Assembly: GCF_014207505.1 (NCBI RefSeq)
Contig: NZ_JACHGL010000001.1
Coordinates: 124,001-188,000 of the forward strand
DNA from: Leuconostoc carnosum
Lineage (GTDB): Bacteria > Bacillota > Bacilli > Lactobacillales > Lactobacillaceae
Direction of reading: 5' to 3'
Length of the DNA: 64,000 bases
Of this stretch, positions 56,850-63,922 are shown in pieces (position 1 is the stretch's first letter; every line of letters begins with the position of its first letter). Below the pieces are notes generated by a model that ran no database searches, had not been told where the DNA came from, and saw only the letters and a program-made list of their open reading frames with translations. The translations under genes were made by a program, and so were the position numbers.

Positions 56850-57398
56850 ATGGCAATTATTATTATTATTGCTGTTGTCGCAGTGATTGCTATCATTTGG
56901 GTTGCTGTTTATAACGGCTTGGTGAAGTCACGCATGCTTACGCAAGAAGCGTGGAGTCAAATTGATGTGCAACTTAAGCGCCGAAATGATTTGATTCCTA
57001 ACCTTGTCAATACTGTTAAGGGTTACGCTGATTTTGAAAAATCAACTTTACAAGCCGTTACAGATGCACGAGCAAGTGTCAATAATGCGCAGGGACCTGC
57101 TGCAACAATGGCAGCTTCTGATCAATTAACTGGTGCTTTATCACATTTGTTTGCTGTGGCAGAAGCATATCCTGACTTAAAAGCAAGTACAAGTTTTAAT
57201 AAGTTACAGGAAGAGTTAACGAATACAGAAAACAAAATTGCTTATTCACGTCAATTATTTAACACAACAACTGCAAGTTACAACACGAAGTTACAATCTT
57301 TCCCAAGTAATATTATTGCAGGTATTCATCATTTTGAACCTAGTGAATTTATTGTTGTGCCAGAAAATGAAAAAGAAGTACCAACGGTTAAATTTTAA
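56850..57398 (+). CDS. lemA: LemA family protein
   Basis: 182 aa. One N-terminal helix (about 2-20, [17 protein letters not shown]) anchors a four-helix bundle with the signature [20 protein letters not shown] and [15 protein letters not shown]. The C-terminus ends EKEVPTVKF. LemA is commonly paired with HtpX; here they overlap by one base. Its role is probably as a partner in membrane protein quality control, from family context. Confidence 0.95.
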
Positions 57399-58291
57399 TG
57401 TTATACGAGCAAATACAATCAAATAAGCGCCGTACCATTGTGCTATTGGTTGGCTTTTTCATTTTGGTAGCTATTGTTGGCGCTGCGGTTGGATACCTAT
57501 TACTTGGTTCTCTTGAACTCGGCATTATTGCGGCTATTGTCATTGGTGTGATCTATACGTTGATTATGATTAGTAACTCAACTAGTGTGGTTATGGCAAT
57601 GAACCATGGTACAGAGATAAAAAATGCTGATGAAGAACCAGAACTATGGCATACAGTTGAAGATATGTCGATGGTAGCACAAGTACCAATGCCCCGTGTT
57701 TTTATTATTCAAGATGATAGTCCTAATGCATTTGCGACAGGTAATAGTCCTAAAAATTCTGCTGTTGCCGCGACAACCGGTTTATTAAAAATCATGAACC
57801 GCCATGAATTGGAAGGTGTCATAGGGCATGAAATCAGTCATATTCGTAATTATGATATCCGTATTTCTACGATTGCCCTCGCTCTAACAGCGGCTATTTC
57901 ATTACTTGTCAATCTTGGGAGTAACTGGTGGTTTTGGGGTAGTGGGACAAATCGTCGTGATAACCGAGAAAGCGGGAGTAATGGTGCTCAAATTTTCCTT
58001 CTGATTTTTTCCATTATTATTATGGTATTAGCACCACTTGTTGCAACAGTGGTACAATTAGCTATTTCACGAAATCGTGAATATTTAGCAGATGCAGGAA
58101 GTGTTGAATTAACTCGTAATCCTGAAGAATTAATTTCTGCGCTAAGTAAACTAGGGTCTGCCAAACCAATGGAAAATGTCGATCCATCTTCAGCATCTTT
58201 ATATATTAGTAATCCGCTTAAACAAAAGAAACACTTGTTTGATACGCATCCACCTATTGAGGAACGAATTGCGCGGCTACAAAAAATGTAA
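57398..58291 (+). CDS. htpX: Membrane zinc metalloprotease HtpX
   Basis: M48 family protease for damaged membrane proteins. 297 aa, two N-terminal helices (about 14-60), zinc motif [11 protein letters not shown], two further helices, and the third zinc ligand in the [17 protein letters not shown] segment. C-terminal [14 protein letters not shown] is typical. ATG overlaps the lemA stop (TAATG). Confidence 0.96.
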
Positions 58292-58326
58292 AAAACGATG
58301 AACAATTACGTTCATCGTTTTTTTGC
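58290..58326 (+). terminator. Terminator after htpX
   Basis: AAAACGATGAAC/GTTCATCGTTTT with T-run immediately after the stop codon. Confidence 0.9.
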
Positions 58327-58477
58327 GGTGATAATCACAACTATATTACAATCATATTTCATAATTATTTTAGATTGATTAATAATTTTATATATTAAAT
58401 TTTATTAATGAAGTTTACGATAAACTAAAGTAGTTAAGAATTGTTAAAGTTTATGCGAACGAGTAGAGGATTAACAT

Positions 58478-59791
58478 ATGGAAAGAATTGATAAGAAAAT
58501 TATTGTATCAGGTTTTAGTTTGTTGGGAATAGCTGCCATTGGGACGGGGATAGCTCATGCAGATGTAGCGCAACAGGTTGTCGATAAAGCTGTGGAATCA
58601 GTCACCGAGCCTTCTAATTTATCGACACAAAAAACGGCACTATCAAAATCACCCTTGAAAATTGCTAAAAATAAAGTTACTCAAGTGTCTGACTCTAAGA
58701 GAGAGCAGATTATTAAGTCAGCAGTGAACTCAAAAACTTATGCGGTTAAAAGTGGTGATTCGCTATGGTCTATTGCCAATCATCATAACGTAAATGTTGA
58801 AGAACTGGTTTTGGCGAATAATGGTTCTGATTTAATTTCTGTCGGTCAAAAAATTACTTTGCCAAGTCAAACGCCTACTACAAGTGTTGAATCAGAAAAA
58901 ACGGATTCGTCACCTGTGACTGTTGATACGGAAAAATCAACTGCAGCGGAAACAGCATTAGAGCCTAAAACTGATGTCAGCGTTGATGACAGTTTAAACT
59001 CACAAGTAGGTAACGAAGCATCAGTGGTGCAAGCACCCACTGATGCTTCATCAGCGAGTGAGAATATTACAAGTAGTGATGTACCAGTTGTAAGTCAGTC
59101 ATCGGCGCCTTCAGTAAGTAGCGTTTCTTCGCAAGTGGATATGTCTTTAACACAAACCACATCAAATCAGGTTAGTGAAACTTTACCTGATATGGCAACA
59201 TCTAAAAATACAAATGATACGACCGCATCATCAGTAGTTCAAACTGCTAGTCAGAAAAGTGACATTGCTGATCAAGGACAAAATACAGTGGAATCAGTCA
59301 CGGCGGCGACTGATCCAGAAACAACAGCTCATTCAGTGGCTGCAGGATCAGACAAATCATCGATTTCACAGTCAGAAAGTGCATCAAATGTACAGCCAGT
59401 TAATAAAACACAACCTAAAACAGACACTAATATAAATGGTATTGTGTCATTAGCTAAAAATTTGGTCACACAGGATATTCCTTATGAATGGGGTGGAACT
59501 AACACGCAAGGATTTGATTGTTCTGGATTTGTGAGTTATGTATTTCAAAATGCTGCTGGTATTTCATTACCTCATTCTTCAGTTGTGCAAGAGTCGTATG
59601 TCCAACAGAAAGCCGTTACGCAAGCACAACCAGGTGATTTGTTGTTCTGGGGAACACCTGGAGCAAGCTATCATGTTGCAATTTACATCGGTGGTAATCA
59701 GTATGTTTCGGCACCCGATTCTGGCGAAAATGTGCGCATTGAAACGATTTCAGCTAACTTTGAACCGAGTTTTGCAGGTCACGTCGAATAG
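58478..59791 (+). CDS. Secreted LysM-NlpC/P60 peptidoglycan hydrolase
   Basis: 437 aa. Signal peptide about 1-28 (hydrophobic core then AHA-DV). One LysM domain at about 87-130 (YAVKSGDSLWSIANHHNVNV ... SVGQKITLP) binds peptidoglycan. A Ser/Thr-rich linker of nearly 190 residues follows, then the NlpC/P60 catalytic domain (about 322-437): YEWGGTNTQGFDCSGFVSY with the nucleophile Cys at about 348, and YHVAIYIGGNQYV with the catalytic His. D,L-endopeptidase activity is expected, in cell separation or wall growth. Confidence 0.94.
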   Translation: MERIDKKIIVSGFSLLGIAAIGTGIAHADVAQQVVDKAVESVTEPSNLSTQKTALSKSPLKIAKNKVTQVSDSKREQIIKSAVNSKTYAVKSGDSLWSIANHHNVNVEELVLANNGSDLISVGQKITLPSQTPTTSVESEKTDSSPVTVDTEKSTAAETALEPKTDVSVDDSLNSQVGNEASVVQAPTDASSASENITSSDVPVVSQSSAPSVSSVSSQVDMSLTQTTSNQVSETLPDMATSKNTNDTTASSVVQTASQKSDIADQGQNTVESVTAATDPETTAHSVAAGSDKSSISQSESASNVQPVNKTQPKTDTNINGIVSLAKNLVTQDIPYEWGGTNTQGFDCSGFVSYVFQNAAGISLPHSSVVQESYVQQKAVTQAQPGDLLFWGTPGASYHVAIYIGGNQYVSAPDSGENVRIETISANFEPSFAGHVE

Positions 59792-59978: not shown

Positions 59979-60107
59979 GGTATAATAATACAATTTGTTA
60001 CAATTTAAATCGGCGGATCAGCTAATAATTGTATTAGCAAAAAGGCCTAATTAACGCGTGTTAAACATCATTGCGGGGTGTTTAATGTATTTAAATCGGA
60101 GGATCTC

Positions 60108-61280
60108 ATGCAAAAATTCTTTTTAGACGATGAAAAGCCTAAATTTAGTTCACGTAATAAGTTTGCTAAGATGGGCTTAACGTTTGAAGATGTCAAGTTA
60201 ATGAACGACAAAAATACGACCGTTCAAGCTAATAATGTCAATGTTTCAACTAGTTTAACACCGACGTTACAACTAAATATTCCGTTGATTTCTGCTGCAA
60301 TGGATACTGTTACTGAGGCTAATTTTGCTATAGAATTGGCAAAGTTGGGTGGGTTAGGTGTTATTCATAAAAATATGACTATTGCTGAACAAGCTGATGA
60401 AGTTAAACAAGTAAAAACAGCCACTTTCGATCCTAAACAATATGATCATGCTGCTGTGGACGCAAAAGAGCAGTTATTGGTTGCTGGTGCAGTAGGTGTG
60501 ACCTCAGATACAGTTAAACGTGTTGAAGCAATGGTTAATGCTGGTGTTGATGCAATTGTTTTAGATTCTGCACACGGTCATTCGGAAGGTGTTTTACGCA
60601 AAGTAACTGAAGTACGTAATGCTTTCCCAGACTTAAATATTATTGCGGGTAATATTGCAACCTCAGAGGGGGCAGCAGCTTTGTATGATGCTGGTGCTGA
60701 TGTTGTTAAAGTTGGTATTGGTCCCGGGTCTATTTGCACAACGCGTGTTGTTGCTGGCATTGGCGTACCACAAATATCAGCAGTTCGTGATGCTGCTGAT
60801 GAAGGTGTTCGTCGCGGTAAAGCAATTATTGCTGATGGTGGTGCAAAAACAGCTGAGGATATTGTCAAGGCAATGGCTGCAGGTGGTAATGCTGTGATGT
60901 TGGGTTCAATGTTTTCTGGTACAAAAGAAACACCGGGCGAAATTTTTGAAGATAACGGTAAGAAATATAAAACTTATAGAGGTATGGGATCAATTGCCGC
61001 TATGGAAGCCGGTTCAAAAGATCGTTATTTTCAAGGTGAAGTTAACGAAGCTAAAAAGATGGTACCCGAAGGTATTGAGGCACGTGTTGAGTATAAAGGG
61101 GCATTGGCAGACATCTTGACCCCTGTTATGAATAGTATTCGCCAAGAAATGTCTGAAATGGGTGAAAGTGCAATTACAGATTTATCAAAAAATCGTCATA
61201 TTGCACGTGATATCACCGGTATTGATTATGAAGAGGCGCTGTCAAAAACTGAGTCAAAGTATACGATACCAACATTCTAA
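60108..61280 (+). CDS. guaB: IMP dehydrogenase catalytic subunit, CBS-less
   Basis: Oxidises IMP to XMP, first step to GMP. 390 aa from ATG 60108 behind GGAGG; usual IMPDH is about 490 aa, and here the CBS pair between the two barrel halves is absent (GLGVIHKNMTIAEQADEV runs on to the second half). Catalytic parts are intact: SAAMDTVTE, DSAHGHS (Asp153), Cys-loop GIGPGSICTTR (Cys210), RGMGSIAAME and flap SKDRYFQG. Missing: the N-terminal DDVLLVP..S.VLP motif, GGLRAGMGYxG, and the C-terminal ESHPHDV..APNY segment, replaced by unrelated sequence ending SKYTIPTF. Those missing parts are present in the next gene's product. Confidence 0.93.
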   Translation: MQKFFLDDEKPKFSSRNKFAKMGLTFEDVKLMNDKNTTVQANNVNVSTSLTPTLQLNIPLISAAMDTVTEANFAIELAKLGGLGVIHKNMTIAEQADEVKQVKTATFDPKQYDHAAVDAKEQLLVAGAVGVTSDTVKRVEAMVNAGVDAIVLDSAHGHSEGVLRKVTEVRNAFPDLNIIAGNIATSEGAAALYDAGADVVKVGIGPGSICTTRVVAGIGVPQISAVRDAADEGVRRGKAIIADGGAKTAEDIVKAMAAGGNAVMLGSMFSGTKETPGEIFEDNGKKYKTYRGMGSIAAMEAGSKDRYFQGEVNEAKKMVPEGIEARVEYKGALADILTPVMNSIRQEMSEMGESAITDLSKNRHIARDITGIDYEEALSKTESKYTIPTF

Positions 61281-61303
61281 GCAGTCAGTAATGGAGAAAT
61301 AAT

Positions 61304-62284
61304 ATGTCTGAAAATAATAAAAACCAAGGTTTAGGGTATGATCAAGTGTTGCTTGTACCTGGTGCTTCAAATGTTTTACCACATACAGTATCGTTATCAA
61401 CACAATTAGCTAACAATTTCATCTTAAATATTCCTTTGATTTCTGAAGCCAATGGTGTTGCTACTGATGTTAGAGTTGTACCAACAGCATTAAATGGTGG
61501 ATTAGGCGTAGTGGCGGAGCAGGAAGATATTGATGCACAGTCAGCAACAATTGCCACTGCTAAACAAACAGTTGTTGATTTTGAAAAATATCCCAATGCT
61601 TTCGTAGATGCTCAGAATCATCTTCGCGTCGCTGCTGAAGTTTGGTTATCTACTGGTGCACAAGACCGAGTTAAAAAGTTAGTTACAGCCGGCGCTGATG
61701 CAATCTTTTTCTATCTTAAAGATGCACTCACTCATGAAACAAATGAAATTGTCAAAGCTGTACGTAAAGCATTTCCAACAACATTCTTAGCTGTTGGGGT
61801 TATTGAAGATCAAGGAATTGCTGGGGCATTGTACCAAGATGGTGTTGACGCCGTCATTGCAGGGCGTGCAGTGAACTCAGAACTACCTAATAATGTGTTA
61901 TATCCATTTTTAACAACAACAATGGCAATTGCAGAAGTGGCAGCTGATTTTGATAAAGCAGTGATTGCTTCTGGTGGTGCTCACTACTCTGGAGATGTTG
62001 TTAAAGCTATCTCAGCTGGAGCATCTGCAATTTTAGTAACTGATTTACTCAAAGGTGAGGTTTTGTCCGCGGATGGTACCTTTGCTGGTGGTGATATGTC
62101 AATTGATGATGCTATTTTCCAAACTGATGGTGGCTTACGTGCAGGGATGGGATATACAGGCTCATCAACAATTTCAGATTTGAAATTGTCAGCAAAGTTT
62201 GTTCAAATTACAGATAATGGTTTGCGTGAATCACATCCACATGATGTTGAAATTACAAAAATTGCACCTAATTACGCAAAGTGA
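61304..62284 (+). CDS. IMP dehydrogenase-like paralogue lacking catalytic residues
   Basis: 326 aa, clearly of the IMPDH barrel family but inactive by sequence. It keeps the N-terminal GYDQVLLVPGASNVLP (11-26), the GGLRAGMGYTGSSTI segment (276-290) and ESHPHDVEITKIAPNY (309-324). The Cys-loop is replaced by AGRAVNSELPNN (186-197, no Cys), SAAMDTVTE by SEANGVATD, and the flap region is deleted. It lies 23 bases after the catalytic gene and before guaA. Inference: a non-catalytic partner that completes the K+ site and interfaces of the first protein. Confidence 0.85.
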   Translation: MSENNKNQGLGYDQVLLVPGASNVLPHTVSLSTQLANNFILNIPLISEANGVATDVRVVPTALNGGLGVVAEQEDIDAQSATIATAKQTVVDFEKYPNAFVDAQNHLRVAAEVWLSTGAQDRVKKLVTAGADAIFFYLKDALTHETNEIVKAVRKAFPTTFLAVGVIEDQGIAGALYQDGVDAVIAGRAVNSELPNNVLYPFLTTTMAIAEVAADFDKAVIASGGAHYSGDVVKAISAGASAILVTDLLKGEVLSADGTFAGGDMSIDDAIFQTDGGLRAGMGYTGSSTISDLKLSAKFVQITDNGLRESHPHDVEITKIAPNYAK

Positions 62285-62374: not shown

Positions 62375-63922
62375 ATGGCTGAAATTAATGCCGATAAAGT
62401 TCTTGTATTGGACTATGGTAGCCAATATAATCAATTAATTACCCGCCGTATCCGTGAAATGGGCGTTTTTTCTGAGTTGAAGTCACGTAATATGACTATT
62501 TCTGAAATAAAAGCCTATCATCCAAAAGCAATTATTTTATCAGGTGGTCCAAAATCTGTTTATGAAGAAGATGCCTTTAGCATCGATCAAGAACTGTTTA
62601 ATTTAGGCGTTCCTGTGCTTGGTGTTTGTTATGGCATGCAATTGATGGCACAACAACTAGGTGGTAGCGTTGAAGCCAATCCTGGGAATGGTGAATTTGG
62701 TCAAACAATTCTAAAACAAACTGATCACGCTGGCCGGTTGTTTGCTGATACACCAGTTGAACAAACTGTTCTAATGAGCCATTCGGATAATGTTGTAAAG
62801 TTACCTGAAGGATTTGAAGTGGCCGGTGGCTCAGATAAGACACCAATTGCTGCTATTGCTAATGAAGAACGTCGTTTATATGGTGTGCAGTTTCATGCAG
62901 AAACAACATTATCTGAACACGGTAAACAGATTTTGCATAATTTTGTGTTTGACATTGCGCAAGCTGAGGCTAATTGGGATATGAGCGGCTTCGTTGATCA
63001 ACAAATTGCTCATATCAGGAATATTGTTGGTGACAAGAAAGTATTATTGGGACTTTCTGGTGGTGTTGATTCATCAGTTGTTGGTGTTTTATTGCATAAA
63101 GCTATTGGTGATCAATTAACGTCAATTTTTGTTGACCATGGATTGTTACGTAAAAACGAAGCGCAGCAAGTGATGGAAATGATGGGCGGTCAATTTGGAT
63201 TAAACATTATCAAAGTTGATGCACAAGAACGCTTTTTGTCTCAATTAGCTGGGGTGACTGACCCAGAAAAAAAGCGCAAGATTATTGGTAATGAATTTAT
63301 TCAAGTCTTCAATGATGAAGCCACAAAGCTTGATGGTATTGATTTTCTGGCGCAAGGTACATTATATACTGATGTGATTGAGTCAGGTACAGATACTGCG
63401 CAAACAATTAAATCACACCATAATGTCGGTGGGCTACCTGAAGATATGCAGTTTAAGTTAATTGAACCACTGAATACACTCTTTAAAGATGAAGTTCGTG
63501 AACTAGGTGAGACCTTGGATATGCCACATGAAATGGTCTGGCGTCAACCATTCCCTGGACCTGGTCTTGGCATTCGTATCTTGGGTGACATCACAGAAGA
63601 CAAGCTAGAAATTGTTAGAGATTCAGATTGGATCCTACGTGACGAAATTGCTAAAGCTGGACTAGAGGGTGATGTTTGGCAGTACTTTACAGTCTTGACT
63701 GGCGTTCGTTCAGTAGGCGTTATGGGAGACTATCGTACCTACGACTATACGATTGCTATTCGTGCTATTACTTCGGTAGATGGCATGACAGCTGATTTTG
63801 CTCACTTACCATGGGAATTACTACAAAAAATTTCAGCGCGTATTGTTAACGAAGTTGGACACATTAATCGTGTCGTCTATGACATTACAGCGAAGCCACC
63901 AGCTACTGTTGAGTGGGAATAG
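62375..63922 (+). CDS. guaA: GMP synthase (glutamine-hydrolysing)
   Basis: Converts XMP to GMP. 515 aa. Class I glutamine amidotransferase domain (about 1-195): [18 protein letters not shown], nucleophile loop [22 protein letters not shown]-pyrophosphatase domain: [21 protein letters not shown]-terminal dimerisation domain: [13 protein letters not shown] and KPPATVEWE. Follows AGGGAGAG; third gene behind the guanine riboswitch. Confidence 0.98.

Follow-up and report, generated by a model that had tools for sequence, protein, structure and literature searches.

A putative two-protein IMP dehydrogenase in Leuconostoc and relatives, with catalytic and neighbour-donated residues divided between adjoining genes

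The pace of guanine nucleotide synthesis is set by IMP dehydrogenase (IMPDH), an enzyme that has drawn much attention as a drug target; the bacterial forms described in the literature drawn on here assemble from identical chains, either four or eight to the complex. In a 64,000-nt window of the Leuconostoc carnosum genome (contig NZ_JACHGL010000001.1, positions 124,001 to 188,000), two adjoining open reading frames on the same strand both match the IMPDH family (PF00478; 435.8 bits for gene A and 179.3 bits for gene B, with a cut-off of 25.6), as an earlier note on this DNA had claimed, and each of them lacks segments that the other retains.

The operon runs on the plus strand in the order riboswitch, A, B and guaA. 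Its leader is a purine riboswitch aptamer (RF00167, 59830..59926; 54.8 bits against a gathering threshold of 37), probably of the guanine type from its discriminating C. Gene A (guaB-A, 60108..61280) encodes the putative catalytic subunit, an IMPDH lacking CBS domains in which the Cys loop, IMP site and flap are present but the donated segments are degenerate; its frame spans 60108-61277 plus the stop codon and encodes 390 aa, or more if translation begins at a GTG at 60078. Gene B (guaB-B, 61304..62284; frame 61304-62281 plus stop, 326 aa) encodes the putative partner subunit, which is without Cys loop, catalytic Asp and flap and has canonical donated segments. The gene for GMP synthase, guaA, which acts at the next pathway step, lies 3' of gene B (62375..63922). 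Upstream of the operon, 56850-59791 carries LemA-like, HtpX-like and LysM plus NlpC/P60-like genes, assigned by eye. A PF00478 search of the genome recovered the A/B pair, one GMP reductase and one FabK and nothing else, with no second intact guaB; since the other matches are GMP reductase and FabK, the pair is the sole IMPDH candidate. The named records found with gene B numbered 11, all from Leuconostoc.

Both proteins scored higher on IMPDH models than on GMP reductase models, and the separate GMP reductase of the same genome exceeded its NCBIfam cut-off. We therefore rejected GMP reductase as an identity for A or B: GuaC shares the PF00478 family with them, but it is a separate gene in this genome and the pair scores best as IMPDH. 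On NCBIfam TIGR01302 (cut-off 481.5 bits), A reached 413.2 and B 124 bits, and the fused A-B protein of genome G036 (genus g19; genera are given as g codes) passed with 547.7 bits. Two intact CBS-less controls also stayed below the cut-off (464.3 and 454.4 bits), so the NCBIfam cut-offs are uninformative here.

The roles of the segments can be read from published structures. The active site of an ordinary bacterial IMPDH lies between two subunits. One gives the catalytic Cys loop, the IMP site, the nicotinamide site and the flap; the next gives the NAD-adenosine pocket, through its N-terminal S-x-VLP and its GMGY loops, and, through its C-terminal E-S-H, one half of the K+ site (PMC4342496, PMC4594927). 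In bacterial enzymes the adenosine of NAD binds the adjacent monomer at Ser-23', Val-25', Leu-26', Pro-27' and Ser-442' (V. cholerae numbering), and in B. anthracis IMPDH inhibitors at this position contact two residues of the adjacent subunit, Gly-444' and the IMSM Tyr (PMC4342496). The motifs that the earlier note reported as lost from A are accordingly neighbour-site elements, VLP and GMGY belonging to the NAD-adenosine pocket and ESH to the K+ site. The argument that the note built on the K+ site held in that ESH does lie in the neighbour's site; the disappearance of the letters ESH, on the other hand, does not prove loss of that site, because the ligands are main-chain carbonyls (PMC4594927), and the altered tail of A could still coordinate K+. 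The missing trans NAD-adenosine pocket, which the note did not name, is the stronger argument.

Alignment with single-gene relatives bore out the description of the first gene. A retains the barrel, MDTVTE, DSAHGHS, GNIAT, GIGPGSICTTR, the IMP phosphate site, the flap and VPEG, and it has lost VLLxPxxSxVLP, KYSGD, GGLRxGMGYxG and ESHPHD...APNY. The canonical VLLxPAxSxVLP is replaced at residues 26-41 (60183..60230), the catalytic Cys loop GIGPGSICT is intact at residues 203-211 with Cys210 (60714..60740), the KYSGD segment has become KTAED at residues 247-251 (60846..60860), and a degenerate C-terminus (61128..61280) stands in place of GGLRxGMGYxG and ESHPHD...APNY, all on the plus strand. A recurring D-[YF] motif occurs within this replaced C-terminus at residues 372-374 (61221-61229) in the rows shown from g1, g2, g7 and g18; given this recurrence, the new C-terminal tail of A may have a role of its own.

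B has the reverse pattern, likewise on the plus strand. It retains VLLVPGASNVLP at 61346..61381, the putative donor to the neighbour's NAD-adenosine pocket, and GGLRAGMGYTG at 62129..62161, both with roles taken from PMC4342496, as well as ESHPHDVEITKIAPNY at 62228..62275, the putative donor of the neighbour's K+ ligands according to PMC4594927. A fourth segment, KYSGD, divides in the same way, being kept in B as HYSGD (61982..61996) and altered in A, and we predict a role for it in the neighbour's site. The second gene had been said to keep the three motifs and to have lost every catalytic element; the former holds, but 3 of 18 own-subunit positions are still canonical in Leuconostoc-type B. 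The predicted structure of B (mean pLDDT 48.9) was too poor for use.

We quantified the partition against 39 control IMPDHs from Lactobacillales, comprising 34 single-gene CBS-less enzymes, with CBS-less status judged from frame length, and 5 CBS-bearing ones. Because strict motif patterns overlook genuine variants, among them the TLLVP of g2 and the DVLM carried by four single-gene g18 enzymes, the counts were drawn from alignment columns. Columns conserved at 90% or more in the controls numbered 183, and a column was scored as kept in a row group at an 80% threshold. The row groups were Leuconostoc-type (g1, g2, g7, g56 and genome G252; 37 A and 37 B), g18 (9 and 9) and g19 (5 and 5). Among Leuconostoc-type proteins, 108 columns were confined to A and 37 to B, both partners kept 32 and neither kept 6; the same four numbers (A alone, B alone, both, neither) were 118, 36, 21 and 8 for g18, and 91, 34, 57 and 1 for g19. 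Loss from both proteins was far rarer than independent loss predicts (6 columns versus 26.8 expected, 8 versus 30.3 and 1 versus 17.6; Fisher p 9e-14, 6e-16 and 2e-11 in the same order, with columns treated as independent). Columns kept at 80% or more in B and below 50% in A numbered 31, 34 and 32, of which 23 were common to all three groups.

The same division appeared among 10 donated and 18 own-subunit residues from the literature, putatively placed by motif. At the 80% threshold, A-type proteins kept 18/18 own-subunit and 0/10 donated positions in each of the three groups, and B-type proteins kept 10/10 donated positions and 3/18, 0/18 and 2/18 own-subunit positions. A thus unites the Cys loop and the catalytic Asp with the IMP phosphate site and the flap in one chain. 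B alone does not: its catalytic Cys, active-site Asp and flap positions are absent in all three row groups. The donated adenosine pocket and K+ segment are lacking from the catalytic chain, and the whole set is present only in the pair taken together. When single rows were counted, all 10 donated residues were found in 51/51 B-type proteins, and the 51 A-type proteins kept 0 (7 rows), 1 (16), 2 (20), 3 (4) or 4 (4) of them; controls held 10/10 in 34/39 and 9/10 in 5/39. Leuconostoc-type A rows retained the V in 62% and the E in 54%. The decay is therefore graded, with as many as 4 of the 10 donated residues surviving in A rows and part of GMGY in one catalytic half from g19. Side by side, these alignments indicate that what A has lost and B has retained is what a subunit gives its neighbour. 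Four g18 single-gene IMPDHs (L062, L066, L070 and L071, from G267, G396, G196 and G035) have DVLMVP for DVLLVP; in those of G267 and G196 the Leu of the VLP motif is lost and the rest kept. The absence of CBS domains, to which the earlier note drew attention, is not peculiar to the pair, as those 34 single-gene controls are CBS-less too, and we discarded it as a novel trait.

We surveyed 397 genomes of the family and searched 21 g18 genomes again. Two-part forms were found in 51 genomes (19 in g1, 2 in g7, 2 in g56, 13 in g2, 10 in g18 and 5 in g19), and g1, the genus of L. carnosum, had the two-part form in 19/19 sampled genomes. Twelve genomes from two lineages carried A and B fused in a single open reading frame (7 in g2, whose other 6 two-part forms were two-gene pairs, and 5 in g19). 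A preceded B on the same strand in 38/38 pairs passing the filter, and the 39th, in G404, agreed by coordinates. At the examined g1, g2, g7, g56 and g19 loci guaA lay 3' of the pair or fusion, and it was not found at the examined g18 loci. RF00167 was present at 17 of the 19 loci searched, including that of L. carnosum; L094 and L097, both g19 fusions, gave no purine riboswitch at the gathering threshold.

At the thresholds used, no extra IMPDH was detected beside a pair in the family genomes or the re-searched g18 genomes. The earlier note had named a genomic pattern that would refute its reading, relatives with a truncated A that routinely lack B. Family genomes were screened for it with a negative outcome: there was no A without B among the single-match genomes scoring nearest the range of A (14 searched, 12 matched, 13 loci read). 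All three segments were present by pattern at nine of the 13 loci (L133-L140 and L142); L143 lacked the GGL pattern only, L141 was broken over two frames with VLP and ESHPHD present, and L144 and L145 were two pieces from G346 lying at contig ends, one carrying VLP and the other ESHPHD. A further 127 family genomes had no match at 1e-30, of which a few were examined. Outside Lactobacillaceae, no pair was detected in 295 genomes of the order, a draw that includes Lactobacillaceae and in which two outside genomes gave one match each, or in 398 genomes of the phylum, at thresholds stricter than the CBS-type matches observed, which a strongly diverged independent pair would escape. A plasmid search with B returned 211 records, all below 60% identity, and the pair was absent among the 10 matches listed.

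The 21 re-searched g18 genomes divide into 10 with a pair and 11 with a single gene; those 11 single-gene enzymes all served as controls and hold 9 or 10 of the donated residues. Families F2 or F3 together with F4 flank 4/10 pair loci (L118, L119, L121 and L122), some of which are cut by contig ends, and F2, F3 or F4 genes stand on both sides at 7/11 single-gene loci (L059, L060, L063-L065, L068 and L069); by reading, F2 is transporter-like and F3 and F4 are ruvA- and ruvB-like. The remaining six pair loci had different neighbours where these were classed, and the remaining four single-gene loci had one or none of F2-F4. In g18, then, a pair and an intact single gene can share one chromosomal slot, which forms a natural replacement series. 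Near the pair at L120, L123, L124 and L125 we observed tRNA genes of equal score, in three copies at L123, L124 and L125. One g18 genome, G124, has guaA and matched neither A (threshold 1e-30) nor the B profile (1e-36); with guaA and no detected IMPDH, it may have lost de novo GMP synthesis.

The catalytic tree comprised 73 catalytic rows, with the trait columns excluded. The g19 catalytic halves fell apart from the A rows; in the best tree a single branch (support 73/81) set off the remaining A rows, and a constraint joining the catalytic halves of every two-part form in one clade was rejected (p-AU 0.000419). As g19 is separate from the other A proteins on the catalytic side, the safest reading is that this side underwent the same kind of decay on at least two occasions, together with two separate fusions. 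All B-type halves clustered in one tree (100/99), which would fit a single origin of B, though the branches are long. With B rows left out, the two halves of g19 as one clade were not rejected (p=0.478), and placement of the g19 partner half with the A clade was rejected (p=0.012). In the GuaA tree, a single clade of pair and g2-fusion hosts was rejected (p=4.45e-05), as was a forced clade of the g18 GuaA rows (p-AU 0.00044). The g18 pairs may reflect either transfer or a further, third origin. The pair of G252 (L118) grouped with the g1-type (84/82 for A and 100/98 for B) and yet sits in the g18 slot, so it looks like a replacement by transfer. The GuaA of another g18 genome, G267 (L160), grouped with the g1/g2/g7/g56/g8/g46 lineage and not with the other g18 genomes. 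Across 28 comparisons of 8 Leuconostoc sequences, A gave dN/dS values of 0.066-0.161 and B of 0.047-0.213, one B comparison being saturated; dS mostly exceeded 1, which makes the values rough. Both genes look to be under purifying selection, and B does not appear to be drifting freely.

We propose that the only IMPDH of the cell is very probably an obligate hetero-oligomer of A and B, whose likeliest form is an A2B2 ring in which the two subunits alternate, and the sequence checks support this. After duplication, the own-subunit parts would have stayed in A and the donated parts in B. In a ring A-B-A-B every A would have a B as donor; the A-B interface would make a complete site one way and a dead site the opposite way, giving two composite active sites and two dead ones. 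Either protein alone would have no active sites or nearly none, and the fused A-B proteins of relatives would fix the ratio at 1:1. The sequences show the division of residues and its conservation, the gene order, the fusions, the constraint on both genes and the replacement of the single-gene form; the assembly, its stoichiometry, the alternation and the mutual dependence for activity we infer.

A different arrangement would be a self-sufficient homotetramer of A with an unusual NAD and K+ site, B being regulatory or stabilising and perhaps standing in for the lost CBS. It could draw on the complete own-subunit set of A, on K+ ligands that, as carbonyls, do not strictly require a given sequence, and on eukaryotic IMPDHs, which bind adenosine mostly within one subunit (PMC4342496). 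We nevertheless regard it as unlikely, given that B keeps exactly the neighbour-donated residues in every one of its rows, that the CBS-less single-gene controls hold 9 or 10 of these in the same protein and have no B, and that A was never seen without B in the genomes checked.

The loss of the catalytic loop and flap from B, and its strong divergence between genera (46% identity to a g2 example and 54% to a g7 example), might suggest instead that B acquired an unrelated function and merely remains in the operon. This appears highly improbable, because the donated IMPDH segments are among the most conserved stretches of B, which is complementary to A and is fused to it in two lineages. We give scarcely any credence to a pair decaying in hosts that live by guanine salvage: low dN/dS, open frames in 51 genomes and the purine riboswitch and guaA in the operon all speak against decay, even though a GMP reductase is present and G124 hints that loss may be possible in the group.

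A broader reading, which we consider probable, is that a self-complementing IMPDH homotetramer gave way to an obligate oligomer of alternating catalytic and donor subunits on at least two occasions, and perhaps on three or more. Each time one copy would have shed its donated residues and the other its own-subunit residues, with fusion locking the result in two lineages. This would amount to a repeated and nearly irreversible ratchet in a central enzyme.

The pair resembles the canonical bacterial GuaB homotetramer in fold family, in the Cys-loop chemistry of A, in the donated loops of B and in an active site shared with the neighbour; it differs in splitting own-subunit and donated parts over two proteins, where single-gene relatives hold both in one chain. 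Its closest relatives are the CBS-less single-gene IMPDHs of other Lactobacillaceae, which are of the same length class and also lack CBS, and of which a g8 example likewise has a riboswitch and a guaA neighbour; in contrast to the pair, they carry both sets of segments in one gene. The closest worked-out precedent that we found is trypanosomatid deoxyhypusine synthase, an NAD-using 2:2 heterotetramer in which an inactive paralog raises the impaired catalytic subunit about 3000-fold (PMC3663545). That different enzyme was shown by experiment to be active only as a complex, whereas the A/B complex is proposed from sequence, and the A/B split follows published own and donated residues and comes with natural fusions. 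B resembles the inactive paralog in lacking catalytic residues, and the fusions, the operon order and the co-occurrence of the two genes lend indirect support to a putative stable 2:2 complex in which B would activate A. In trypanosomatid AdoMetDC and its prozyme a dead paralog also activates the enzyme, but reportedly through relief of autoinhibition and not through donated active-site residues (PMC5201418).

Among the matches listed in a search of titles and abstract openings of open-licence literature, none described a bacterial IMPDH that is heteromeric or encoded by two genes, in keeping with the earlier note's view of an apparently undescribed form, and we rate the pair as a known enzyme in what would be a new quaternary and evolutionary form. 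The natural separation of own and donated parts would allow subunits to be mixed to test their roles in NAD binding, K+ activation and hydrolysis, and natural controls exist within a genus, where some relatives retain the intact single gene, in part at the very chromosomal slot that a pair occupies elsewhere. If true, these enzymes would be a case of recurrent evolution of an obligate heteromer.
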